In this document: positions 1 to 20,528 of the stretch, piece by piece
Numbering within the stretch: the first letter of the stretch is position 1
Layout: every line of letters begins with the position of its first letter
From: a virus
Virus record (IMG/VR): IMGVR_UViG_3300025030_000336
Span: 1 to 30,151 of that record
DNA length: 30,151 nucleotides
Direction: 5' to 3' (one strand)
Program-made: the position numbers and the translations under genes
Notes under the pieces: generated by a model
What the model saw: the letters and a program-made list of their open reading frames with translations, nothing else
What the model was told of the DNA's origin: nothing
Database searches by the model: none

Positions 1-273
1 AACGGCTCGGTGGCCTGGGCAGGCGGTGCGGGAGGTGGTTCTGGCAGCGATTATACCGCTGCTGCCACAGATACCGTTTTAATTACCGCTCCAGGGGTGT
101 TTACCTGGAACGTGGCTGCAGATGTGCAGGATTTTGTGGACGGCGCGGCCACCAATCACGGCTGGTGGCTGATCGGCGATCAGGTCAATGCCGATTCGGG
201 CAAGCGATTCACGGCTTCTGATGGGGCAACCCCGGCCAACCGGCCTATTTTGATGGTGAGCGTAAACCCTTAG
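1..273 (+). CDS. DNRLRE-like domain of a tail-tip/fibre protein (5' partial)
   Basis: The reading frame is open from the first base and ends at TAG 271-273, so only the C-terminal 90 residues are seen. After a Gly/Ser-rich linker comes a beta-rich stretch with the pattern TWNVAADVQDFVDG, then NHGWWLIGDQ, and a closing RPILMVSV strand. This order resembles the DNRLRE / CBM-like beta-sandwich found in secreted and tail-fibre proteins, where it acts as a structural or carbohydrate-binding module. The stop is immediately preceded by the heptamer AAACCCT in the phase X XXY YYZ, and the -1 frame continues into an M14 peptidase, so this may be the first half of a frameshift fusion. The GTG at 10 is probably an internal Val codon rather than the start. 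The domain call rests on pattern only. Confidence 0.6.
   Translation, partial: NGSVAWAGGAGGGSGSDYTAAATDTVLITAPGVFTWNVAADVQDFVDGAATNHGWWLIGDQVNADSGKRFTASDGATPANRPILMVSVNP
264..270 (+). promoter_or_regulatory. Candidate -1 ribosomal frameshift slippery site AAACCCT
   Basis: The heptamer is phased A AAC CCT in the upstream frame and followed directly by TAG (271-273). Slipping back one base gives AAA CCC TTA GAC and opens the M14 peptidase frame. The -1 frame is blocked by TGA at 219-221, so the switch must occur within 222..273. A weak GC-rich stem GGCG (276-279) / CGCC (289-292) lies five bases downstream. A natural frameshift mutation or a sequencing indel is the alternative. Confidence 0.5.
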
Positions 274-1430
274 ACGGCGGCGGCCCCACGCCACCGGACT
301 CAATCAATTTCGACCAGGGTAGTGCAGATGCGATTGTTGACGATGCTAGTACCAGGATTATCCCGGAGTTCCACTGGAACAATCAATGGCTGTGGTTCGC
401 GATCAAACGCGCTGACCTGGAAGGTACGGCGAGGCATTTCGTGATGTCAAAAGCCAGCCGTTTTGAACCTGCGGGTACGATCGAAAACTTGGCAACCTGG
501 GCGGCGGAAATGGACACGGATACCTGGCACAGCTTTGATAATCAGTCCGTGGGAGCCTATGACATCGAGTCATACCATAATGATGTTTTCCCGGCGGGTG
601 ACATTTATATATGCCCGCATCCTGCCTATCCATTCAGCCGCACGCAACGATTGATGACGGATTGGCTGGCTGACCCGCGCGCCAGCGATACGGCCAGCTC
701 GACCGCCGGCGTGATCGGAACTTCGACATCCAGGGACGCGGGCGACGGCAGTGGAAGGACAGTTTCAGCATTGGAGTTCTACGGCTTCAAACTGACCAAT
801 AACAGCGGCTTTACCAAAAACAAGGCCATTCTGGTCGGCGGCAATCATCCCAATGAAACGCTTGGTCGCTTCCAACTGGAAGGTGCGCTGGCCTGGCTGC
901 TTGCGGGGAGCGCCGAAGCGGAGAGCTTACTGGATTGGTTCGAGTTCTACGTTTACCCTTGCACCAACCCACAGGGCGTTTGGGCAGGCTACACCCGTAG
1001 CCAGCCGGAAGATCCGACCAAAGATCATAACCGGGAGTGGGACACGGGCGGGCTGGAATGTGTGGATGCGTTCAAGGCTGCATTTTTAGCCGATACGGGT
1101 GGAACGATTGAGCTGGGAATTGACTTCCATTCAGGTAATGCCGCCAGCGGCTATATGGTAGTCGAAGATCATACGGCAGCAATGTATGACGGATTTCTGA
1201 CCCGAATGCAGGCGTACAACGCGCAGTTCAGTTATGCAGATTTAGCCATTGACGGCTTTTTGAATTACCTGTGGAACCATTCGTATTCGTGCCGCCTGGG
1301 GCTGGTGGTCGAGCGCATGCCCGTCGCCGGAACCGACCTGGTTGTGACGGCCAAAACGCAGGGTCAGAACGCAATGAAGGTTCTCGCCGATATGCTGGCA
1401 GATGGATTGTTTACCAATGGGCCAGCCTAG
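270..1430 (+). CDS. M14-family zinc carboxypeptidase domain protein
   Basis: The frame carries the M14 metallopeptidase signature: HxxE zinc ligands in GGNHPNETLG (H at 846-848, E at 855-857), the NPQG and DHNREW substrate-binding segment (N-R at 1029-1034), the third zinc ligand in IDFHSG (H at 1128-1130) and the catalytic Glu in LVVERMP (1311-1313). The first usual start is GTG 441 or ATG 444. However, the sequence upstream to about 300 also reads as protein (EFHWNNQWLWFAIKRA) and resembles the N-terminal beta domain of cytosolic-carboxypeptidase-like M14 enzymes. No ATG, GTG or TTG exists between 222 and 441. Expression by -1 frameshift from the upstream gene, through a GGGPTPPDS linker, fits best. 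M14 enzymes cut C-terminal residues or peptidoglycan peptides. In a phage tail region a cell-envelope role is plausible but inferred. Confidence 0.8.
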   Translation, partial: LDGGGPTPPDSINFDQGSADAIVDDASTRIIPEFHWNNQWLWFAIKRADLEGTARHFVMSKASRFEPAGTIENLATWAAEMDTDTWHSFDNQSVGAYDIESYHNDVFPAGDIYICPHPAYPFSRTQRLMTDWLADPRASDTASSTAGVIGTSTSRDAGDGSGRTVSALEFYGFKLTNNSGFTKNKAILVGGNHPNETLGRFQLEGALAWLLAGSAEAESLLDWFEFYVYPCTNPQGVWAGYTRSQPEDPTKDHNREWDTGGLECVDAFKAAFLADTGGTIELGIDFHSGNAASGYMVVEDHTAAMYDGFLTRMQAYNAQFSYADLAIDGFLNYLWNHSYSCRLGLVVERMPVAGTDLVVTAKTQGQNAMKVLADMLADGLFTNGPA

Positions 1431-1546
1431 CGCGGCCACCACAGCAGCGCCACCGCTGCCACGCCGATGACCAGGCAGAAAGCAGCACCCAGCACGATCA
1501 CGGCGGCGGCGATGGACTGGCGGCTGGGCGGATGGAAGTTGGACAT
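1427..1546 (-). CDS. Putative 39-residue single-pass membrane peptide
   Basis: A short minus-strand frame starts at ATG 1546 and stops at TAG 1427-1429, overlapping the convergent stop of the M14 gene. After a polar N-terminus it has a long hydrophobic run (IAAAVIVLGAAFCLVIGVAA) and ends LLWWPR, as expected for one transmembrane helix with a basic end. There is no strong ribosome binding site, and a longer in-frame ATG lies upstream. It could be a lysis-related peptide on the opposite strand or a chance frame in a GC-rich spacer between two plus-strand genes. Confidence 0.3.
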   Translation of the reverse strand: MSNFHPPSRQSIAAAVIVLGAAFCLVIGVAAVALLWWPR

Positions 1547-1553
1547 AAATGAA

Positions 1554-1628
1554 TTATAGCAGGGCGAAGGCAGCCAGGAGCAGGCCGCACAGGAGCAAGG
1601 CGAATTGGAGTGTGGTGAGATCGGACAT
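1554..1628 (-). CDS. Putative 24-residue hydrophobic micropeptide
   Basis: This minus-strand frame encodes MSDLTTLQ followed by a leucine-rich helix (FALLLCGLLLAAFALL) and TAA. It lies just upstream of the 39-residue membrane peptide on the same strand, eight bases from its ATG. The two peptides share the start MS and a TM-only design. AAGGA occurs upstream but is too distant to be convincing. Reported because two such frames in tandem is unusual; it may be chance. Confidence 0.2.
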   Translation of the reverse strand: MSDLTTLQFALLLCGLLLAAFALL

Positions 1629-1642
1629 ACGGACATTTTAGC

Positions 1643-1837
1643 ATGATCCTTGAGCGTGAGCAGATCATCGCCGTGTTCCTGATCTTCTCCCTGGTCGCTA
1701 ACATCTTCCAGGTCTGCTTCGCGCTGTGGCTGTCCAAGACGCGGGGCGACGATACGCCTCCGCACGACGCGGAAGCGGAGCGATTGAAGCGGATCAAGGA
1801 GCGGCTGATGGAGCGGATACGGGAGAACAAGAACTAA
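1643..1837 (+). CDS. Small membrane protein with charged tail, holin/spanin-like
   Basis: The 64-residue product has one N-terminal transmembrane helix (IIAVFLIFSLVANIFQVCFALWL, about residues 8-30). A strongly charged, probably helical cytoplasmic tail rich in Glu, Arg and Lys follows. It overlaps the terminase small subunit start as TAATG (1835-1839), so it is translationally coupled to the packaging genes. Position next to a peptidase gene and terminase is common for lysis or accessory membrane proteins, but one helix plus coiled tail is not diagnostic. Function unassigned; a holin-like or i-spanin-like role is a guess. Confidence 0.6.
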   Translation: MILEREQIIAVFLIFSLVANIFQVCFALWLSKTRGDDTPPHDAEAERLKRIKERLMERIRENKN

Positions 1838-2334
1838 TGCGGGCGAAGTGGCGCGCCTTCGTGGACGAATACTTCCGGTTGAACATGAACGGGACGCGGG
1901 CATACAAAGCCGTCTATGGCGTGGAAGATGACAACGCGGCTGCTGCTCACGCAAGCCGTCTGGTAAGGAATGGTAAGGTTGCAGCCGAAATTGAAAATCG
2001 ATTGAAAGCAAAACAGATGGCCGCCGAAGAAGTCTTGGCACGCATAGCAGAGCAGGCCCGCGGCGAATACTCCCCTTACTTTGATGATGACGGGCGGGTG
2101 AACGTTGCCAACATCGTCAAGGACGGCAAGGCGCATCTAATCAAGAAGATCAAGACCCGCACAGTCGTAGACGGCGATGAATTGACCTACGTTGACAAAG
2201 TGGAGTTCTACGACTCCCAATCCGCCCTGAGAGACCTGGCCCGCGTTCACGGGCTGTTCAAGGATCAGGTTGAGCACTCAGGCGACATCCGCATTTTGGT
2301 GGAGTATGAAGACGCTGACCCTGAAGCTACCTAG
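1837..2334 (+). CDS. terS: Terminase small subunit
   Basis: This 165-residue protein directly precedes the terminase large subunit and shows the small-terminase pattern: an N-terminal DNA-binding region with FVDEYFRLNMNGTRAYKAVYG, then ASRLVRNGKVAAEIENRL, as in the Terminase_2 family. A C-terminal part probably mediates oligomerisation and contact with TerL. It recognises the phage genome for packaging. ATG 1837 is chosen because it overlaps the preceding stop (TAATG) and matches the family's N-terminus; longer in-frame extensions upstream read as shadow of the previous gene. It overlaps terL by 29 bases. Confidence 0.85.
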   Translation: MRAKWRAFVDEYFRLNMNGTRAYKAVYGVEDDNAAAAHASRLVRNGKVAAEIENRLKAKQMAAEEVLARIAEQARGEYSPYFDDDGRVNVANIVKDGKAHLIKKIKTRTVVDGDELTYVDKVEFYDSQSALRDLARVHGLFKDQVEHSGDIRILVEYEDADPEAT

Positions 2335-3589
2335 ACCGCACCCGGCACAGGCGCAGGTGCTCGACGAGCGCAAGCGGTTCAACGTGCTCAACTGCGGGCG
2401 GCGCTTTGGAAAGACCACGATGGGTATTGACTTGCTGGCCGCGCCGATGCTTCTAGCGGGCAAGCCGGTTGCCTTCTACTCACCGACCTATAAGATGCTG
2501 AGTGACGTGTGGCGGGATTTCAAACGAAGCTTCTCGCCCGTGATTGCAAATAAAAGCGAGCAGGAACACCGCATCGAACTTATTACGGGCGGTACCCTGG
2601 ATATGTGGAGCCTGGAAGACCCGGACAGCAGCCGCGGCCGCAAGTATGCCCGCATCTTTATTGACGAGGCTGCCAAGGTGAGAAAGTTGGAAGAGGCCTG
2701 GACGCAGGTCATCCGCCCAACCCTGGCAGACTACGCCGGGGATGCGTTCTTTGCAAGCACCCCAAAGGGGCTTAACTACTTCTTCATCCTGTGGCAGCGG
2801 GCAGATGATAGCGAAGACTGGGCGCGCTGGCAGTTCCCGACAGCCGCCAATCCTTACATCCGGCGGTCGGAGATTGTTGCTATGAAGGCTGAGTTGCCGG
2901 AGCGCGTTTACCTGCAAGAGATCCTGGCTGAGTTCATCGCAGACGGTACTTATTTCCAGGGTGTAGATAAGGCCGCGGTGATCGAGCAGCCAGGCCAGCC
3001 AGACCAACATTCTGGCCACCACATCGTTATGGGGATCGACTGGGCGCTGCATCAGGACTATACCGTTTTGACGGTCGTATGCCGGGAATGTAACCGTGTT
3101 GTGGATTGGGAACGGTTCAACCAGATTGACTTCACTTACCAACGGGAGCGGGTATGGGGTATGGCAAAACGGTGGCATGTGCGTGGTGTGCTTCCCGAGC
3201 GCAACTCGATTGGCGAGCCGAACATGGAATTATTACAGGAGCACATACCACTGCTGTCGGGTCCGGATGAAAAGCCGGGTTTCAATACCACATCCAGCAC
3301 GAAGCCGGGGCTTATCCAAGGATTGGCGGCGGCGCTTGAGCACGAAGGATTCAAGGTTCCGAAAGACTACGGAGACGAGCTGCGCGCTTACGAAGTCGAA
3401 ATGCTGATAAATGGACATCCGAAATTCGGCGCACCGGAAGGCCAGCACGACGACCGGGTGATCTCGCTGGCGCTGGCATGGTACGCGCTGGGGCGCTATT
3501 CTCCCTTACCATCACAGCCTATCCAGCGCAGCAAGTGGACACAGGGCAGCGTAGAAACCGGCGAAGAGAGCCGGTGGCATAAGTTTTAG
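2306..3589 (+). CDS. terL: Terminase large subunit (packaging ATPase/nuclease)
   Basis: 427 residues. The ATPase half has a Walker A motif CGRRFGKTT (about residues 30-38) and a Walker B motif RIFIDEAAK (D120, E121). A STPKG coupling segment follows. The nuclease half has GIDWALHQDYT (catalytic Asp), ERNSIGEPN and the C-terminal HDDRVISLALA acid motif, the order seen in terminase large subunits with an RNase H-fold nuclease. It pumps DNA into the prohead and cuts the concatemer. ATG 2306 with GGTGGAG upstream is preferred over an earlier in-frame codon at 2270. The portal gene follows after 8 bases. Confidence 0.95.
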   Translation: MKTLTLKLPRPHPAQAQVLDERKRFNVLNCGRRFGKTTMGIDLLAAPMLLAGKPVAFYSPTYKMLSDVWRDFKRSFSPVIANKSEQEHRIELITGGTLDMWSLEDPDSSRGRKYARIFIDEAAKVRKLEEAWTQVIRPTLADYAGDAFFASTPKGLNYFFILWQRADDSEDWARWQFPTAANPYIRRSEIVAMKAELPERVYLQEILAEFIADGTYFQGVDKAAVIEQPGQPDQHSGHHIVMGIDWALHQDYTVLTVVCRECNRVVDWERFNQIDFTYQRERVWGMAKRWHVRGVLPERNSIGEPNMELLQEHIPLLSGPDEKPGFNTTSSTKPGLIQGLAAALEHEGFKVPKDYGDELRAYEVEMLINGHPKFGAPEGQHDDRVISLALAWYALGRYSPLPSQPIQRSKWTQGSVETGEESRWHKF

Positions 3590-3597
3590 AGGGCATC

Positions 3598-5052
3598 ATG
3601 GCAATTACAGGCGAAATTGGAAGCAGCGGGCTTTTAGCGTGGTCGGGGATCATCCAGGAAGACTTCCTGACCGAACTCCAGGGCAAGCGCGGGTACAAGG
3701 CTTACCGCGAAATGGCCTTGAACGAGCCGGTCATCGGCGCGTTACTCCTGGCAATCGAGCACGCCATCCGGGGCGTTACATGGACGTTTGCGAGCGATAA
3801 AGGCGAAGAAGACCCGCGGCTGGAACTCTTGAAAGAAGCCAAGGAGAACCTGAGCCATTCGTGGAACGATCACATCGTAGAAGCCCTGTCCATGCTGCCG
3901 TTCGGTTACAGCTTCTTCGAGATCGTCTATGAGCGGATGGATAGCAAGATGTTGTGGCGCAAGTTCGCCGTCAGGGGCCAGGACACGCTCTACAAGTGGG
4001 AGATCGATGATACCGGCGGGCTGGCGGCCTTCGTCCAGCAGTCACCGCCCAAGTACCAGACCGTGACCATCCCCATCGAGAAATGCCTGCTCTACCGCAC
4101 GCGTCTTGAGCGCGGCAACCCGGAAGGGCGCTCGATACTCAGGACGGCGTATAAGGCTTATTACTATCTCAAGAACATCCAGGCCATCGAAGCCATCGGG
4201 ATCGAGCGGGACCTGGCCGGCCTGCCAATGATCCGCCTGCCGGAAGGGGCAACTACGGGTAGCGCGGCGGATACCGATAGCAGCGTTGCGGAGAAGGTGG
4301 TAAGGAACGTCCGCAACGACGAGCAGTCGGGCATTGTACTGAAGCCAGGCTGGGAGTTCGAGTTACTCTCGACCGGCGGCACCCGCCAGTTCGACACAGA
4401 CAAGATCATCAGCCGGTACGAGTCCCGAATCCTGATGAGTTCGCTCGCCCAATTCCTGATGCTGGGACAGGAAGGGGTTGGGAGCCTGGCCCTATCCCGT
4501 GACTCGACCGACTTCTTCACGATGTCGGTAAACGCCACGGCGGACATCATCGGCGAGACGTTCACCAAGTACGCCATCCCGCGCCTGTTGAAGCTGAACG
4601 GCCAGGACCCGGACGGGATCAGGCTGGAGCACTCGCCCGCCGGTGACGTGGACATCGAGAAGATCAGCGACTTCCTGCAGAAGGTGGGCGGTAACTTCCT
4701 GACCTGGACGGCGCAGGACGAGACCTGGCTGCGGGGTGCGGCTGGGCTGCCTGAACTGGACGAAGAAGAGATCGAAGCCGAGCGGGAGCGCAAGCAGGCA
4801 GTCGCATTAGAGATCGCACGGTCCGGGCCGCAGCAGCCAGGCGAAGCGCCGGGACGGGGGTCGCAAGACCAGCCTCCAACCCGTCCCGGCCAGCCTGGGA
4901 AACTGGGCGCTGAATTGTACTTCGCGCAGAACGCACCGGATGACGAAGAGCGGCGGCTGTGGGAACTGCGTTATGAGCGGTTGATGAAGGCGTATCTCGA
5001 CAAGGCAAAGAAGCGCGTGCTGAAAGAAGCCAGGAAACTCAAGAATGTCTGA
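3598..5052 (+). CDS. Portal protein, DUF935 / Mu gp29-like
   Basis: This 484-residue protein lies between terL and the Mu F-like gene, the standard place for the portal. The sequence has the DUF935 (Mu gp29) pattern: an N-terminal KRGYKAYREMALNEPVIGALL, a central EGRSILRTAYKAYYYLKN and AIGIERDLAGLPMI, then SRYESRILMSSLAQFLMLGQ. The portal is the dodecameric channel at the capsid vertex through which DNA enters and to which the neck attaches. The tail from about residue 395 is Pro/Gly/Gln-rich and then highly charged (LDKAKKRVLKEARKLKN), probably a flexible extension. It overlaps the next gene by 8 bases. Confidence 0.92.
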   Translation: MAITGEIGSSGLLAWSGIIQEDFLTELQGKRGYKAYREMALNEPVIGALLLAIEHAIRGVTWTFASDKGEEDPRLELLKEAKENLSHSWNDHIVEALSMLPFGYSFFEIVYERMDSKMLWRKFAVRGQDTLYKWEIDDTGGLAAFVQQSPPKYQTVTIPIEKCLLYRTRLERGNPEGRSILRTAYKAYYYLKNIQAIEAIGIERDLAGLPMIRLPEGATTGSAADTDSSVAEKVVRNVRNDEQSGIVLKPGWEFELLSTGGTRQFDTDKIISRYESRILMSSLAQFLMLGQEGVGSLALSRDSTDFFTMSVNATADIIGETFTKYAIPRLLKLNGQDPDGIRLEHSPAGDVDIEKISDFLQKVGGNFLTWTAQDETWLRGAAGLPELDEEEIEAERERKQAVALEIARSGPQQPGEAPGRGSQDQPPTRPGQPGKLGAELYFAQNAPDDEERRLWELRYERLMKAYLDKAKKRVLKEARKLKNV

Positions 5053-5647
5053 CCCGCGCCAGTACCAATTTTGGCTTGACGAAGACGGCGAGTTGTGGGA
5101 TGAAGTCGCTCCGCTGATCCTTGATATTTTCTACGACGGGGTGCGTGGTGGCGAGAAGTTGCTGCCACCCGCTGCGCGCGTGCTGATTGATTGGGACGTG
5201 GTAAACGAGCGGGCGATAGACTGGCTGAGGGGTTACCACTTCGACCTGATCCGAGGCATCAACGAGACCACCCGCACGCAGACACAGAAGGCGCTGGAAG
5301 AGTGGATTAGATCGGGAGAGAGTCTTGACGTTCTGGAAGCCAGGCTGGGGCCGGTATTCAGCCCACAACGAGCGCATAACATCGCCGTTACGGAGACGAC
5401 CAGGGCATACGCGAGCGCAAACGGGGAGGCCTGGGCCGCAAGTGGTGTGGTGGAAGAGTTCGACGTTATGACTGCAGAAGATATTAAGGTCTGCGAGATT
5501 TGCGAAGGTAAGGCAGACAACAATCCCTATCAACTCGGCGACGATGAAGGCGAGATGCCCTTCCATACCGGCTGCCGTTGCTGGAAGCACCCGCGGGTAT
5601 CTGAGAAGAAATTCCGCGAGCAGGTTCGGGGCATACTGGAAGAATAA
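5045..5647 (+). CDS. Mu F-like head morphogenesis protein
   Basis: 200 residues with the Phage_Mu_F / SPP1 gp7 pattern: INETTRTQTQKALEEWI, then an ITVTETTR-like segment (here NIAVTETTRAYASANGEAW), then VCEICEGKADNNPY and the C-terminal HTGCRCWKHPRV. The Cys/His pairs probably bind zinc. Family members are minor head proteins attached to the portal and needed for assembly or DNA ejection. It overlaps the portal at its start and the next gene at its end (TAATG), so it is translationally coupled on both sides. It lacks the ADP-ribosyltransferase or nuclease fusions seen in some relatives. Confidence 0.88.
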   Translation: MSDPRQYQFWLDEDGELWDEVAPLILDIFYDGVRGGEKLLPPAARVLIDWDVVNERAIDWLRGYHFDLIRGINETTRTQTQKALEEWIRSGESLDVLEARLGPVFSPQRAHNIAVTETTRAYASANGEAWAASGVVEEFDVMTAEDIKVCEICEGKADNNPYQLGDDEGEMPFHTGCRCWKHPRVSEKKFREQVRGILEE

Positions 5648-6081
5648 TGCCAATCATTATCGAAGGCTTAGACGAACTGCGCGACCGCATGGCCCAGTTC
5701 CCCGGCAAGTTCCAGCGGGTGATCGCAAAGACGCTGGAAGCATCCTTGCTCAAGCTGTGGGAGAACGTACCGCCCTACCCGCCAGCGCCCGCGTCTTCTG
5801 AGTACGTCCGTACTGGTACATTAGGGCGCACTCTTGGAGCAGGCGGCCAGCGACCGGACATCTACGAAGTCAAGCAGGAAGGCGGCTTCCAAGTGGCGAG
5901 TTTTGGGACGAAGCTGGGATATGCGCCTTACGTGATCGGCGACAACGAGCAGGCCTGGATGCACGAGGGACGCTGGTGGGTACTGGGCGACGTGCTGAAC
6001 AAGTCAGTGAACGCCATCGAAGGGCTGTTCAATGCGGCGGCTGACGAGATGGCAAAGTGGCTGGACGGGAAGGGAGCATGA
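5647..6081 (+). CDS. HK97 gp10-like / phage morphogenesis protein
   Basis: 144 residues, starting MPIIIEGLDELRDRMAQFP. The short N-terminal strand followed by a helix and a central TGTLGRTLGAGG segment is the arrangement of HK97 gp10-like and Mu G-like morphogenesis proteins, which occupy the neck or tail terminus. A later FGTKLGYAPYVIGDNEQ segment also matches (the usual YAPYVEFG box). Position after the Mu F-like gene agrees with a Mu-type order. The stop overlaps the next start as ATGA. Family-level call only. Confidence 0.7.
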   Translation: MPIIIEGLDELRDRMAQFPGKFQRVIAKTLEASLLKLWENVPPYPPAPASSEYVRTGTLGRTLGAGGQRPDIYEVKQEGGFQVASFGTKLGYAPYVIGDNEQAWMHEGRWWVLGDVLNKSVNAIEGLFNAAADEMAKWLDGKGA

Positions 6082-6281
6082 TGGATAACACAAATTTTCA
6101 GGTAATACCGATTGACCCTGACAAGAGATATGCAATTCGATTGACAGAGCAAATTTCGCTTGAGCATTTATTGCAACTAAAAATAATGCTCAATGAATGG
6201 CAGAAAAGCGACGATCAATTCTTGATCATTGGTCCTGGAGTTGAACTGGTAAAACTTGAAGATGACCGGAACCAACGGTAA
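6078..6281 (+). CDS. Small hypothetical protein
   Basis: 67 residues beginning MMDNTNFQVIPIDPDKRYAI. It has no motif I recognise. It looks like a small alpha/beta protein with a predicted helix LEHLLQLKIMLNEWQ and a final strand LIIGPGVELVKLE. The start overlaps the previous stop (ATGATG), with GGGAG a few bases upstream, so expression with the head operon is well supported. It is visibly more AT-rich than the genes before it, as is the gene at 6485, which suggests a recently added accessory segment between head genes. Confidence 0.6.
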   Translation: MMDNTNFQVIPIDPDKRYAIRLTEQISLEHLLQLKIMLNEWQKSDDQFLIIGPGVELVKLEDDRNQR

Positions 6282-6297
6282 GGTTAAACCTATCCTT

Positions 6298-6483
6298 ATG
6301 CACGACTATCGCTGCCGGGCTTGCGGGCGGCTGCTGTTCCGCGCCATCCTGCCAGCGGGAGCGGTGATCGAGATCCGCTGCACGAAATCGAGTTGTCATA
6401 CCATGACGATCCTTGATATGCAGCCGGGGCAGCCGGTCTTGCAGTTAGAGCCGGTTGAAGCTATAATTGAAGCGGGAGCATAA
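6298..6483 (+). CDS. Com-like zinc-ribbon protein
   Basis: 61 residues opening MHDYRCRACGRLLFRA and continuing AVIEIRCTKSSCHTMTI. This is the layout of Mu Com and its many phage relatives: CxxC, a LLxR/K segment, then a second cysteine pair directed by an EIRC strand. In Mu, Com binds mom mRNA and switches on its translation. No mom-like gene is visible here, so the RNA target is unknown. ATG 6298 puts the first CxxC at the family's usual distance from the N-terminus. In-frame starts at 6256 (TTG) and 6262 (ATG) would add about 12 residues and overlap the previous gene. Confidence 0.7.
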   Translation: MHDYRCRACGRLLFRAILPAGAVIEIRCTKSSCHTMTILDMQPGQPVLQLEPVEAIIEAGA

Positions 6484-6484
6484 T

Positions 6485-6898
6485 ATGAATACGATTTCCG
6501 AGGAGTGGGCACGCCAATTGATATTCAACCTAACTGGTAATCGAGAAGCAGAGCAAGTATATTTTCTACCGCGATACTATCCAGTTTACAGGGTTACTAT
6601 GCCAGATGCAAATGACTACCCTATCCGATGGTTCGAGCCGAGTGATTTCGAGTTGAAGATTGAAGACATCCAGATCAAAAAGGCTATTGATCCTTACGGG
6701 TATTTTGGATATGAATGTCATTATATCGGGTATGGTGAGAAATCTAAAATCATCGTTGTTTGTGGCGGGCCAGAAATGTTGAGCGAGCGAGATATATTGG
6801 CCCTAAAATTGGAGCAGCATGAGCGCGATGTGTTTCTTCGCGGCGGCAGAGTCGGTAGTAGTCCATTCGATATTGACGCTAGTGATATTATCGGATGA
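6485..6898 (+). CDS. Hypothetical protein
   Basis: 137 residues from ATG 6485, chosen because GGGAG lies a few bases upstream; an in-frame start at 6467 lies inside the previous gene. The product has a Tyr/Pro-rich N-terminal half (YFLPRYYPVYRVTMPDAN), a central strand SKIIVVCGGPEM and a charged C-terminus ending DASDIIG. No family recognised. Its base composition is more AT-rich than the flanking head genes, like the small gene at 6078. It is the last gene before a promoter-bearing gap, so it may end the packaging sub-operon. Confidence 0.6.
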   Translation: MNTISEEWARQLIFNLTGNREAEQVYFLPRYYPVYRVTMPDANDYPIRWFEPSDFELKIEDIQIKKAIDPYGYFGYECHYIGYGEKSKIIVVCGGPEMLSERDILALKLEQHERDVFLRGGRVGSSPFDIDASDIIG

Positions 6899-6905
6899 AT
6901 AGCCC

Positions 6906-6934
6906 TTGCAATTTAGCGGGAGTTATGCTAAACT
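6906..6934 (+). promoter_or_regulatory. Sigma-70-like promoter
   Basis: TTGCAA (6906-6911) and TAAACT (6929-6934) are separated by 17 bases in an AT-rich patch directly after the 6485 gene. Transcription would enter the protease, scaffold and capsid genes. The sequence match is good but the host's consensus is unknown. Confidence 0.45.
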
Positions 6935-6961
6935 AAAATTCAGAAGTTGAATTTAGAATAA

Positions 6962-7017
6962 GAGCGCCCCCTAGAGCGCCGGTTGCAGAACGCCTTGAGC
7001 GTCGAGTGATCGGCGCT
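6962..7017 (+). promoter_or_regulatory. Structured 5' leader of the capsid operon
   Basis: The direct repeat GAGCGCC occurs at 6962-6968 and 6974-6980. AGCGCCG (6975-6981) can pair with CGGCGCT (7011-7017), enclosing an inner stem ACGC (6990-6993) / GCGT (6999-7002). This lies between the promoter and the protease start at 7071. It may stabilise the mRNA or attenuate transcription; no U-rich terminator tract follows. Confidence 0.35.
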
Positions 7018-12917: not shown

Positions 12918-13651
12918 CCGTCAAATGGGTGTGCGGGTCGAATGAGCGTTACCTTCCCAAGATGGGCGCCTTCCTGCGCTCACTTGACGAACATTGCCCC
13001 TTTGAGCTGTGGTACGTGCCAGTTGGATTTGATACCGAACCGTTCAAGCGAGTGCAGGCTACCGCGCTCACTAAAGATCAGAACGCGGGCGCGCCGCCTG
13101 AAACTGAGTGTATCCAGCACGGTTCATTCCTGCAGGTGATACCGGGAAATGATGACGATATTCTGATCTACTCGGATGGCGACATGATCATGCAGCGCTC
13201 GCCCAGCACGGGAGAGATCGACTGGCTAGAGAACTTCCCCGATGGCATGGTTAGCGCAGGCTGGAACAGCGGGCCGGGCGAGACGTTGATGGACGAGGCG
13301 ACCCGCCTACATCCGAAAATCACTCCCTGGGATACGCTGAAGATATGGAGCACGCACATCTTGCACCTGAACTGCTTCAACGTTGGGGTACTGGTGGCAA
13401 GGCGCTCGACCTGGCAGCGGATTTACGACGCCTACATAGAACGCTGGGAGAAGATAAGCGCCACATTCGAGCACCAGGGCCGCCAGCAGTGGTTGATCTG
13501 CTACTGCTTCCACCTGCTGCAGCTCCAGATCCACGTCATGCCCTACACCTTCCACACCCACGGTCATTACCAGATACCGGACGGGGTTGAAGAGATCGGT
13601 GGCCTGATCTGCTACAAGGGCGAGCCGGTTTTGCTGAGACATCGAATATGA
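12914..13651 (+). CDS. Glycosyltransferase, GT8-like
   Basis: 245 residues from ATG 12914 (ATGA overlap). It starts VKWVCGSNERYLPKMGAFLRSL, a GT-A type entry, and has a metal-binding DxD in YSDGDMIM (D88-G-D90). HLNCFNVGVLVARRSTW and EHQGRQQWLI (the conserved Asn/Gly and Gln positions) follow, and the end is FHTHGHYQ with a catalytic-side His. This order matches GT8-like retaining transferases that use UDP-sugars. The enzyme should act in the cytoplasm on the same acceptor or glycan as its neighbours. Family assignment is by pattern and could be another GT-A family. Confidence 0.7.
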   Translation: MTVKWVCGSNERYLPKMGAFLRSLDEHCPFELWYVPVGFDTEPFKRVQATALTKDQNAGAPPETECIQHGSFLQVIPGNDDDILIYSDGDMIMQRSPSTGEIDWLENFPDGMVSAGWNSGPGETLMDEATRLHPKITPWDTLKIWSTHILHLNCFNVGVLVARRSTWQRIYDAYIERWEKISATFEHQGRQQWLICYCFHLLQLQIHVMPYTFHTHGHYQIPDGVEEIGGLICYKGEPVLLRHRI

Positions 13652-14229
13652 TTGACTTCTTTTTCGATCCCGCCGCGCCGGTCCAGCCCGACCAATACCA
13701 GACGGAGTTCAATTGCCTGCTGAAATATTACGAGCAGCTTGCCCCCCGACGGGTACTGGAGATCGGGGTCAGGGAGGGTGGCAGCCTGTACCAGTGGATC
13801 AAGCGCAAACCTGAACTCGTGGTAGCAGTAGATGACGGCGGGATGTTACGTTGGGGCAATGATGGCAAGATCGACCCCGGCAAGTGGCAGGAGTGGGCGG
13901 ATTACTACGGCGTGAAACTGGTAGCGGTGATGGGCGATAGCCACGATCCACGCATCCGTCTGAAGGTCGCTGAACATAAGCCATTTGATTTTATCTTCAT
14001 CGATGGCGACCACTTAGCGGGCGGGGTAGAGCAGGACTTGAGCGATTATCTGCCGATGGTTCGACTCGGCGGCATCGCCGTGCTACACGACATCCTTCCT
14101 GATTACAGTGATCCTGGCATTGGCGTCTGGCAAGCCTGGGAGCGGTTACGGGAGAGCGGCGCGCTTTTGCGGGAGTTGTACCAGCATGAGAACCAGGGCA
14201 ACCGCGGGATCGGGATGATTTATGTATGA
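13648..14229 (+). CDS. SAM-dependent methyltransferase (class I)
   Basis: 193 residues with a Methyltransf_24 / cephalosporin-hydroxylase-like Rossmann pattern. It has VLEIGVREGGSLYQWI (motif I, SAM-binding), LVVAVDDGG (acid loop), FDFIFIDGDHLAGGVEQDL (motif with metal-binding Asp and His) and LGGIAVLHDILP. Relatives in glycan clusters O-methylate sugars. It begins at the ATGA overlap with the GT8-like gene and ends overlapping the mutase by 8 bases, so it belongs to the same unit. Methylation of the phage glycan is the likely but unproven role. Confidence 0.75.
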   Translation: MIDFFFDPAAPVQPDQYQTEFNCLLKYYEQLAPRRVLEIGVREGGSLYQWIKRKPELVVAVDDGGMLRWGNDGKIDPGKWQEWADYYGVKLVAVMGDSHDPRIRLKVAEHKPFDFIFIDGDHLAGGVEQDLSDYLPMVRLGGIAVLHDILPDYSDPGIGVWQAWERLRESGALLRELYQHENQGNRGIGMIYV

Positions 14230-17298: not shown

Positions 17299-17703
17299 AT
17301 GGCACACAAGAAAAGTTCTGTAATGACCGTCAGTATCGATAATGCCTCGGCGGCCCTGACCTCGATCACCGCCAGCACGAACAGCGCCAGCCTGCGGGCG
17401 GCGATGGAACTGCTGGAAGACAGCGTACTTTCGGACACTGCCCATAACTATATCTCGGGCATGATGAACGGCACGCTGCCCTTGAATGGTTGGGTGAACA
17501 CCACCACAGACGGCATTTTCGGGCCGCTCACCGAGGGCACGTCGATCACCAAGACCGTCTCGTTCTACAACGGCATCTCGTACTATACCGGTGAAGTTTG
17601 GGCGGAAGTCGAGTTCTCGGGCGGTGCAGGCGAACTGCAAACGTGGTCGGCTAACTGCACCTTCGACGGCCTGATCAACCGCACATCCGTTGCGCCTGCC
17701 TAG
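17299..17703 (+). CDS. Major tail (tube) protein
   Basis: 134 residues with a perfect AAGGAG before the ATG, consistent with an abundant virion protein. It precedes the two-frame tail chaperone and the tape measure, the fixed place of the tube gene in siphoviruses. The sequence is beta-rich (KTVSFYNGISYYTGEVWAEV and GELQTWSANCTFDGLI), as expected for the tube fold. An N-terminal SVMTVSIDNASAALTSITA strand-helix is included. It polymerises into the hollow tube through which DNA passes. Confidence 0.75.
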   Translation: MAHKKSSVMTVSIDNASAALTSITASTNSASLRAAMELLEDSVLSDTAHNYISGMMNGTLPLNGWVNTTTDGIFGPLTEGTSITKTVSFYNGISYYTGEVWAEVEFSGGAGELQTWSANCTFDGLINRTSVAPA

Positions 17704-17705
17704 CC

Positions 17706-17999
17706 ATGGACTTCACAAACGAAGTTTTGGGAGCGAAGCTATCGTTACCCGACCGCCCGACTGTGCGGCAACAACTCCGCTACCAGGGCGAGATCGGGGC
17801 CAGGATGGGCGGCGAGCTATATATCCGCCTATGGGCCGGGGCAAAGACGATCATCACCGGCTGGGAGTGCGCGCACGTCACCCTGGACGCTGATCTGGAC
17901 GAGATCAGCGACCCGACCGCGGCGCGCTGTCTGATGTGGGCAGGCCTGCAGGTCTACTCGTTCATTGACGCGCTGGAAGACCTGCCAAAAAACTCATAG
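17706..17999 (+). CDS. Tail assembly chaperone, upstream frame (G-like)
   Basis: 97 residues between tube and tape measure genes. Seen pattern: a DFTNEVLGAKLSLPDRPTV start, RQQLRYQGEIGARMGG and the acidic helix-rich YSFIDALEDLPKNS end. The last codons CCA AAA AAC TCA TAG contain the slippery heptamer A AAA AAC in phase, and a second frame continues downstream. This is the lambda G / G-T arrangement, where a minor extended form recruits tape measure and tube subunits. Chaperones of this type do not enter the virion. Confidence 0.8.
   Translation: MDFTNEVLGAKLSLPDRPTVRQQLRYQGEIGARMGGELYIRLWAGAKTIITGWECAHVTLDADLDEISDPTAARCLMWAGLQVYSFIDALEDLPKNS
17987..17993 (+). promoter_or_regulatory. Programmed -1 frameshift site AAAAAAC
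   Basis: The heptamer reads A AAA AAC in the frame of the upstream chaperone, two codons before its TAG (17997-17999). Slipping back one base continues as CTC ATA GAG GCG GCG GTG into the second chaperone frame. The match to the classical X XXY YYZ rule and the gene position leave little doubt. Confidence 0.85.
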
Positions 18000-18268
18000 A
18001 GGCGGCGGTGATTGCGGCAGAAGGTGACGGCCCGCCGCCTCCTGAGTTGCGGCTCGCCTGGCAGTGTCAAAGGTGGGGCGGGCTGCCGGACGCGGGCGGG
18101 ATCTACGACCAGGACGCGGAGCTGCTATACAGGATGACGGCGCTCAATAATGTATACCGGGTAGTTTCACGGGTAGGATCGATGATCGGCAAGGAGATCC
18201 ACAAGCTAACGTCCGGGGAGCGCAAGTTGATCAAGTGGCTGCGCGACGAGGATCTGTTAGGGAGTTGA
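17993..18268 (+). CDS. Tail assembly chaperone, downstream frame (T-like)
   Basis: This frame is read after the -1 shift and adds 91 residues to the upstream protein, giving a fusion of about 187 residues. It starts LIEAAVIAAEGDGPPPPELR, then LAWQCQRWGGLPDAGGIYDQD, a bacterial Phage_TAC-type motif in which a short helix recognises tape measure, and ends with a helical KLTSGERKLIKWLRDED. The GTG at 18008 could start a separate product but has no good ribosome site. It ends 7 bases before the tape measure ATG. Confidence 0.75.
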   Translation, partial: LIEAAVIAAEGDGPPPPELRLAWQCQRWGGLPDAGGIYDQDAELLYRMTALNNVYRVVSRVGSMIGKEIHKLTSGERKLIKWLRDEDLLGS

Positions 18269-18275
18269 TGGAATA

Positions 18276-20528
18276 ATGGCTGACGTAAAGATCCGGGTAC
18301 TCACCGAAGACGAAGCGTCCCAAAAACTCAAGGCTATTGACAAGAGTCTGGAGAAACTGGGTGGCACCGCTAAAACTACGGGCGGTGGTCTCGGTGGTCT
18401 TGACAAAGCTTTCAGGTCCGTAACAGGGGTGTCTTTGGGCTGGGGGGCAGCAATCGCGGGTGTTACCGCGGGCCTGAAGTTCACCATTGATGCGGCCGCG
18501 GAAGCTGAGCGGGTGATGGCTCTTACCGAAGCGGTCATCAAGTCAACGGGAGGCGCGGCTGGATTTACCGCTGAAGAGATCGCCAAGCTATCCCTGGAAC
18601 ACTCCCGCCTAGCAGGAATCGAAGACGAAGTAGTCCAGTCGGGCAATAATATGTTGCTGACCTTTACTGCCATCGGTGAAGAAGTATTTCCGCGGGCAAG
18701 TAAGGCCATGCAAGACATGGCCGTGGCAATGAATAGCGGCAACCTGGAAGGCATTGATTTGAAAGGCACAGCTATTCAGCTCGGTAAGGCTCTAAACGTG
18801 GTCGCAGGTGATACGGCAGGCGCGAACCGGGCCATGACCGCGCTTCAACGAGTGGGCGTGCGCTTCACAGAAGATCAAAAGAAACTTGGCGCGGAACTTA
18901 TCGAGACCGGAAAAGTAATCGAATACCAGAACTTGATCTTGGGCGAACTGGAGACCGAATTTGGCGGGGCGGCAGAGGCAGCGGGTAATACCTTCACGGG
19001 AGCGGTCCAAAAACTAAAGAACGAACTTGGCAATCTTGGTGAAGTAGCTGGTGCGGTTGCGATCGACGATCTAACCACGCAGATCGAAGGGTTAACCAAG
19101 GCTTTGCAAGCCAAAGAGATGGAGCAGTTTATAAAGTTCCTGATCGAGGCTGATAAGTGGTCGCGCATCATAAAAGACCCGATTCGGCTGAATGCGGAGC
19201 TGTTTGGGGATGAAGAAGAAGCACTGAGAAAATTAAACGAAGGGCTGGACGAAGGCCGGGAAAGGTTCTTGCAGTACATCCAGGGAACCGAAGAGGCTAG
19301 CAAGAGTACCGATGAGTTAGCCGAAGAGATTGAGAAGAACTACGAAGCGGCTGTGAAATTAATTGGCAGCTTCGATTGGGCCGGGCGAGCCGCGCGGGAA
19401 TATGGCATCGACATAGATAAAGCGTGGGAGGCTACTGTACGTCTTGAGCGTGTTCAAAAAGGGCTGGCTACTCTCAATTTGTTGGTAAGCGGGCCGTTGG
19501 GGAATGAAACCGAACGCTTCCTGGAAGCAGAACGGAACCTGCAGGAGCGATCCGAAGACCTGAAAGAGCGCATCACAGAATTGGGCGGCATGGAATACTT
19601 GACTCCTGAGCAGATCGCTCAAATCGAGAACACACGCAAGCACCTGGGTGGTGTCACGGTAGAGATCAAGGCGTTACAAGAAGCACTCAAAGAAGGCGAG
19701 ATCAAGAAAAAGCACCGGGACGATGCCAAGGAGAGAATCGAAGACCTGAAAGAGCAGGCCGGGCGGCTCGAAGAAGTCATCGAGGGCCTGGGCAGCACCC
19801 CTTATATAACCACTGAGCAGAAAAAACAATTGGAAGAAGCCCGCGAAGATATGCTCGGGCTGACAGAAGCTATCCAAGAAAACGCGGACGAACACGAAAA
19901 AGCTACCAAGCGTATCTTGCTTGACTTGATTGAGCAACGGGCCGCCCAGATGGGGCTATTCGAAGGTCCGCAGGGCGACAAAGCCAGAAAACTTCTTGAT
20001 GACCTTGCTCTTAAATGGGGATTGATCGATCAAGAAACTTTTGATGCCCTGCAGACGATTGACGAGGCACTTAAGGTACTTGGTGAAAATAAAAGCGTTA
20101 CCGAAGCATCCAACATGATAAGCGAGATCGAAGGCGCGGCATTTGATGCAGGCGAGCAAGTCGATATACTGACACCGAAAATCCAGGCATTGATGGCGAC
20201 GATTGATGATGTGGTCGGCGAGCACGAAATCCACTTCACGATTACCCAAAGCGGGGACACACCCCGCTTGATGCCTGGCATGAACCAGCGCGACTTGCTC
20301 GACCAGTTTGAAGACATGGAAACAGGCAATAATTCAGACCTGTTCCTTCCCCCTGACGATAACTCAACCCCATCCAACGGCGGCCCGAATACTCCTACGA
20401 GTACAAACAGCCCGGTCATCAATAATAACAACTACAACATTTACAACCCGGCGGCGATGGCGATGGCGCTTGACGAATCCGAGCGCATATCAAATAAAAA
20501 CTTGAGAGCAAGCGCAGGAGTTGCATAA
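18276..20528 (+). CDS. Tape measure protein
   Basis: 750 residues, the longest gene here, placed after the tail chaperones. The N-terminal part has the TMP pattern: KAIDKSLEKLGGTAKTTGGG, a hydrophobic segment WGAAIAGVTAGLKFTIDAA (about 52-70) and an AAGFTAEEIAKLSLEHSRL helix. From residue 300 it is long charged coiled-coil. Two related units of about 70 residues start near 435 and 505 (LGG-EYLTPEQ-AQIENTR and LGSTPYITTEQKKQLEEAR). The end is Asn/Pro-rich (NNNYNIYNPAAMAMALDES). The length of this protein sets tail length. By the usual scaling of about 0.15 nm per residue the tail would be about 110 nm. Confidence 0.93.
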   Translation: MADVKIRVLTEDEASQKLKAIDKSLEKLGGTAKTTGGGLGGLDKAFRSVTGVSLGWGAAIAGVTAGLKFTIDAAAEAERVMALTEAVIKSTGGAAGFTAEEIAKLSLEHSRLAGIEDEVVQSGNNMLLTFTAIGEEVFPRASKAMQDMAVAMNSGNLEGIDLKGTAIQLGKALNVVAGDTAGANRAMTALQRVGVRFTEDQKKLGAELIETGKVIEYQNLILGELETEFGGAAEAAGNTFTGAVQKLKNELGNLGEVAGAVAIDDLTTQIEGLTKALQAKEMEQFIKFLIEADKWSRIIKDPIRLNAELFGDEEEALRKLNEGLDEGRERFLQYIQGTEEASKSTDELAEEIEKNYEAAVKLIGSFDWAGRAAREYGIDIDKAWEATVRLERVQKGLATLNLLVSGPLGNETERFLEAERNLQERSEDLKERITELGGMEYLTPEQIAQIENTRKHLGGVTVEIKALQEALKEGEIKKKHRDDAKERIEDLKEQAGRLEEVIEGLGSTPYITTEQKKQLEEAREDMLGLTEAIQENADEHEKATKRILLDLIEQRAAQMGLFEGPQGDKARKLLDDLALKWGLIDQETFDALQTIDEALKVLGENKSVTEASNMISEIEGAAFDAGEQVDILTPKIQALMATIDDVVGEHEIHFTITQSGDTPRLMPGMNQRDLLDQFEDMETGNNSDLFLPPDDNSTPSNGGPNTPTSTNSPVINNNNYNIYNPAAMAMALDESERISNKNLRASAGVA

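Follow-up and report, generated by a model that had tools for sequence, protein, structure and literature searches.

Frameshifts that add a domain to a phage virion protein have been described for SPP1 and for TpeX of the 936 phages, the added part in the latter being a CBM (PMC6669499). In both SPP1 gp17.1/gp17.1* and lactococcal 936-phage TpeX, the stop codon stands right after a complete virion-type domain, and the extra domain lies in the other frame and is reached by frameshifting. A related system is the lambda gpG/gpGT pair: its -1 slip takes place at an X XXY YYZ heptamer that lies close before the stop, and a hairpin follows. In the PRFect survey of phage frameshift genes, all four bases were found at every position of the X XXY YYZ motif, with no base restriction (PMC10885494). 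Separately, single-frame proteins are known in which a DNRLRE/CBM96 domain is followed by an enzyme module and the gene lies in a phage structural-gene neighbourhood. The cytosolic-carboxypeptidase-like M14 peptidases (PDB 3l2n, 3k2k and 4b6z) share an HPxE zinc motif, NPxG, an NREW stretch and a later His and Glu, and carry an N-domain before the catalytic domain. The locus considered here has features of each of these systems.

The window analysed is the virus record IMGVR_UViG_3300025030_000336 over its whole stretch of 30,151 bases. This contig is without terminal repeats, and the open reading frame at its left margin is therefore taken to be cut by the contig's end, about 271 bases from the junction. 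An earlier note on this DNA had described an upstream frame ending at TAG 271 and a peptidase frame that is open from 222 and holds no ATG, GTG or TTG before 441, and re-reading of the sequence confirms this layout (Table 1). Frame 3 is bounded by TGA 219-221 and TAG 1428-1430 (402 aa), its earliest such codon being GTG 441, and the frame 1 stop (271-273) falls inside the stretch that is open in frame 3 (222-1427). The -1 relation of the two overlapping frames is certain, and a programmed origin for it is a candidate explanation only. As in SPP1 and TpeX, the stop directly follows a complete virion-type domain and the extra domain lies in another frame. Unlike those systems, in which a binding domain is added to an abundant tail-tube (major tail) protein and which are conserved or experimentally supported, the module added here would be an enzyme, and the locus is known from one sequence.

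Table 1. Coordinates in the window of features of the DNRLRE-peptidase locus and of the tail-chaperone pair
Feature	Position	Strand	Remarks
DNRLRE (CBM96-type) domain, C-terminal half	1..273	+	Frame 1; cut by the contig end at left; stop TAG 271-273; NF033679 match; 36% identity to the DNRLRE part of L003
M14 zinc carboxypeptidase frame	222..1430	+	Frame 3; N-domain from about 309; PF00246 match, identity to L002/L004, PDB 3l2n
GGTGAG, Shine-Dalgarno-like	255..260	+	Read from sequence; 3 nt 5' of the heptamer
Candidate -1 slippery heptamer A AAC CCT	264..270	+	In phase X XXY YYZ; last base adjoins TAG
Linker LDGGGPTPPDSIN	270..308	+	Gly/Pro; frame 3; codon-usage score
Hairpin	275..296	+	Stem blocks of 3 + 4 pairs, 6-nt loop, -13.9 kcal/mol; begins 4 nt past the heptamer
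GTG ATG, earliest peptidase-frame start codons	441..446	+	GAGG just upstream
Tail-assembly-chaperone pair, G/GT type	17706..18268	+	Before the tape measure; internal positive control

Profile searches bear out both domain assignments of the earlier note, DNRLRE-like upstream and M14 peptidase downstream. The frame 1 protein matches NF033679 (NCBIfam) with an E value of 3.1e-7, its residues 11-86 aligning with profile positions 93-163 of 164, and is the C-terminal half of a DNRLRE domain. The score of 30.6 bits lies below the cut-off of 34 because the N-terminal half of the domain is beyond the contig end, and a Pfam search with this half domain gave no CBM96 match. At its C-terminus the domain is complete 12 bases 5' of the stop, so that any change of frame is pinned to about 259-270, the interval in which the heptamer lies.

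The frame 3 protein matches Peptidase_M14 (PF00246, E 2.2e-8) and PDB 3l2n (E 3e-8), the nearest structures being cytosolic-carboxypeptidase-like. It has the HxxE...H ligands, the catalytic Glu and the N-domain ahead of the catalytic domain that mark this group, and it has in common with them the HPxE, NPxG and NREW motifs and the later His and Glu, although 3l2n, 3k2k and 4b6z are cellular enzymes with a start of their own. Two relatives, one on a viral contig (L002) and one in the Chloroflexi MAG RBG_16_57_11 (L004), show 48-51% identity to the window peptidase over its whole length, and the zinc ligands (His 846, Glu 855, His 1128) and the catalytic Glu 1311 are invariant in all three. Some 376 aa of the frame (about) are undamaged and every zinc and catalytic residue is present, so this is not an old pseudogene. 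Thirteen residues within 309-440, 5' of the earliest start codon, are likewise invariant in the three peptidases; translation of the N-domain must therefore begin no later than about 309, in keeping with the earlier note, which had seen protein-like sequence begin near 300. No relatives of the window peptidase were found in the annotated phage collection, nor any further phage-type peptidase in about 800 genomes of the phylum/order of the Chloroflexi MAG. AlphaFold models built from alignments of 2-3 sequences reached a mean pLDDT of 31 and 39 and were set aside.

At the junction, the heptamer AAACCCT is phased X XXY YYZ with its last base immediately before the stop, and the joint reads in frame 3 as a Gly/Pro linker, both as the earlier note had reported. 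In-phase X XXY YYZ heptamers occupy 10 of the 6149 codon positions in the phage's genes, and one of these is the tail-chaperone site. When single bases were removed in silico from the phage's own genes, an in-phase heptamer was present in 28 of 2332 deletions with a switch window of at most 60 nt (1.2%), and stood within a codon of the new stop in 4 of 2332 (0.17%). If a lost base made the layout, the heptamer is a coincidence of 1% or rarer. Scored against the codon usage of the phage's genes, 270-308 reaches +1.9 bits in frame 3, a value reached by 3.3% of non-coding windows, against -12.6 and -6.0 in frames 1 and 2, which are not coding-like. The motif itself belongs to the weakly shifting class in E. 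coli (PMC4066793). In a systematic test in that host, shifting was lower with CCN or GGN in the A site than with AAN or UUN there, and A_AA.C_CC.A remained below threshold even with a strong pseudoknot; A_AA.C_CC.U is absent from its list of efficient motifs (PMC4066793).

The hairpin after 271 is strong, falling in the top 0.09% for 24-nt stretches, although at 40 nt it is only in the top 8%. Compared with dinucleotide shuffles its z is near 0, and 27-35% of random synonymous encodings of the linker fold as strongly; it was rejected as independent support for frameshifting, since Gly/Pro linker codons yield it anyway. Stimulated -1 sites have a Shine-Dalgarno spacing of 10-14 nt, a spacing of 3 nt being that of the RF2 +1 site, and GGTGAG was discarded as a -1 stimulator on account of its wrong spacing. 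A +1 shift at CCT TAG was dismissed, as frame 2 soon reaches a stop, and so was transcriptional slippage, there being no long A/T run.

The same phage carries a site with the layout of lambda gpG/gpGT. An open reading frame at 17706-17999 follows a major-tail-protein match (17299-17703) and precedes the tape measure (18276-20528). Its in-phase heptamer, A AAA AAC (17987-17993), stands one codon 5' of its TAG; the -1 frame is open to 18268, and a 10-bp GC hairpin follows 5 nt downstream of the heptamer. With this textbook layout, 17987-17993 is evidently a tail-chaperone -1 frameshift site. The junction shares with this type a heptamer just before a stop and a hairpin behind it. It differs in that the lambda-type product is a chaperone and not a virion protein, and in that the phage's own instance combines another motif, A AAA AAC, with a strong hairpin whose stem is much longer than that at 275. 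No relatives of the chaperone were found in 12 records with a query that was perhaps too short.

The earlier note had proposed a comparison of related genomes for conservation of the heptamer and the two-frame layout. No second record with a DNRLRE-M14 junction emerged from collections of viruses, phages, plasmids and species genomes, and relatives of each half are arranged otherwise. A search with a 19-mer near the joint, of a kind that very near records may escape, matched no near-identical record. The L002 peptidase has its own ATG at 3956, directly after an upstream stop (TAAATG, 3953-3958), and that of L004 its own ATG at 3932; a relative's peptidase with its own start is what the earlier note held to count against its reading, and these two supply it in part. 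The L004 peptidase and a LamG-like domain, named by eye from the sequence, form one continuous frame (3932-5719), and in L002 the two are overlapping open reading frames (3956-6995), the LamG-like ATG lying inside the last codons of the peptidase. Directly 5' of the L002 peptidase gene there is a run of glycosyltransferase-like and methyltransferase-like genes (62-3344).

For the upstream half, L003 is the only DNRLRE-enzyme relative found. Its DNRLRE/CBM96 domain, matched as a whole by NF033679 (E 3.3e-22), and a GH30-like enzyme form one uninterrupted frame of 667 aa (3671-5674) among head/connector genes. The order of modules is that of the window locus, from which L003 differs in being a single frame where recoding is not needed and in bearing another enzyme. 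A DNRLRE domain was absent from 12 terminase-related phage records. Over the terminase and a portion of the portal, L007 has about 91% DNA identity to the window, and beside its small terminase gene stands a GH43 glycosidase (3-740), in the place taken in the window by the M14 peptidase (1-1430). Given this GH43 and the fused and split arrangements in relatives, the site is a modular, exchangeable enzyme slot.

The independent ATG starts of the L002 and L004 peptidases are one reason to consider that the locus may be two genes, the DNRLRE gene ending at TAG 271 and the peptidase being made either by coupled re-initiation at ATC 303 or ACG 288, or in an N-truncated form from GTG 441 or ATG 444. 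The completeness of the DNRLRE domain before its stop is a further point in favour of separate genes, as is the GAGG that precedes GTG 441/ATG 444 by 5-8 nt. However, the codons of frame 3 between 222 and 309, read directly, include no CTG, ATT or ATA in addition to lacking ATG, GTG and TTG, and ATC 303 and ACG 288, the only conceivable weak starts in that interval, are both without a Shine-Dalgarno sequence. A start at 441 is itself unlikely, with conserved N-domain residues upstream: all 13 invariant residues would be lost. Moreover, the frame 3 codon-usage score of 270-308 is that of coding sequence, and the translation there looks like a linker. We regard separate genes as an improbable account of the locus.

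A weightier alternative is that one base is missing at about 259-273, whether because the reads or their assembly are wrong, because strain variants were joined into a chimera at a swapped module, or because a base was recently and genuinely deleted; the true or ancestral gene would then be a single DNRLRE-linker-M14 frame and the heptamer coincidental. Such a loss has a higher prior than a programmed frameshift; a survey covering prokaryotic genomes attributed most frame transitions that lack homologous clusters (singletons) to indels or errors (PMC3711429). It is also favoured by the uninterrupted frame of L003, by the nearness of the junction to the end of a contig without terminal repeats, and by the different content of the enzyme slot in the closely similar L007, since co-occurring variants could break or mis-join an assembly. 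On the other hand, the late block at 2.3-23.7 kb, which served as the coding reference, has no comparable break; the assembly is therefore not error-rich, and widespread sequencing error is unsupported. A heptamer within the pinned interval has a low probability by chance, and the peptidase is without decay. We consider a lost base a real possibility, somewhat below an even chance.

A programmed -1 frameshift is the likeliest single reading, to which we give just under an even chance, a lost base or chimera explaining the locus almost as well; these weights are judgements and not computed probabilities. The frameshift accounts for the linker and the intact enzyme as well as for the heptamer and where it lies, whereas a lost base explains all of these except the heptamer. 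The case for frameshifting is made by the layout, by the heptamer and its phase, by an intact peptidase that is conserved from before any start codon and by a -1 site elsewhere in the phage. Against it stand a junction seen in a single sequence, a weak motif class, a hairpin that follows from the linker codons, the lack of a Shine-Dalgarno sequence at -1 spacing and a contig end in an exchangeable module. With its -1 overlapping frames and in-phase motif, the locus is a candidate for, rather than an established member of, the programmed-frameshift genes. The -1 frameshift fusion proposed in the earlier note is partly supported: the layout, in-phase heptamer, linker and intact peptidase fit it, and it is weakened by the motif class, by a hairpin no better than the linker codons would give and by the absence of the junction from relatives.

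If frameshifting does occur, the locus would encode a two-module and probably virion-associated adhesin/enzyme, composed of a DNRLRE sugar-binding-like domain, a Gly/Pro linker and an M14 zinc peptidase. Termination at TAG 271 would be the usual outcome, giving a DNRLRE protein without the enzyme. A small minority of ribosomes would instead shift back by one base on A AAC CCT, the Asn tRNA re-pairing on AAA and the Pro tRNA on CCC, perhaps helped by the adjoining stop and the GC hairpin at 275. These ribosomes would read on as ...VNP-LDGGGPTPPDSI-NFDQGS... and produce a DNRLRE-peptidase fusion, with the predicted joint sequence VNPLDGGGPTPPDS. We infer the slippage, its efficiency, the presence of both products in virions and the action of the peptidase on host surface peptides. 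Our proposal, a tentative one to which we would assign rather less than an even chance, is that a weak -1 frameshift on A AAC CCT meters the copies of a virion sugar-binding protein that bear a zinc peptidase, in a slot where kin phages carry glycosidases. If this is true, the amount of an enzyme on the virion would be controlled by frameshifting, a role beyond the addition of binding domains or chaperone parts, and the GC-rich heptamer A AAC CCT would be at work in phages, perhaps those of Chloroflexota. If it is false, the locus would be an example of recoding mimicked, plausible heptamer and hairpin included, by an indel within a swapped module close to the end of a contig.

The further suggestion in the earlier note, that the phage makes two tail proteins at a fixed ratio, is supported by nothing that we found. 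The window gene has no PHROGs match, and neither a location in a tail cluster nor similarity to tail fibres or other tail proteins was detected for it. It precedes small genes and the terminase, far from the tape measure, and its relatives L002 and L003 lie near head/neck genes; a place beside the terminase or, in relatives, beside head/neck genes is no mark of a tail protein. Elsewhere in the late gene block, the stretch 13648-14229 weakly matches DNA methyltransferases of phages (PHROGs, E 1e-5).
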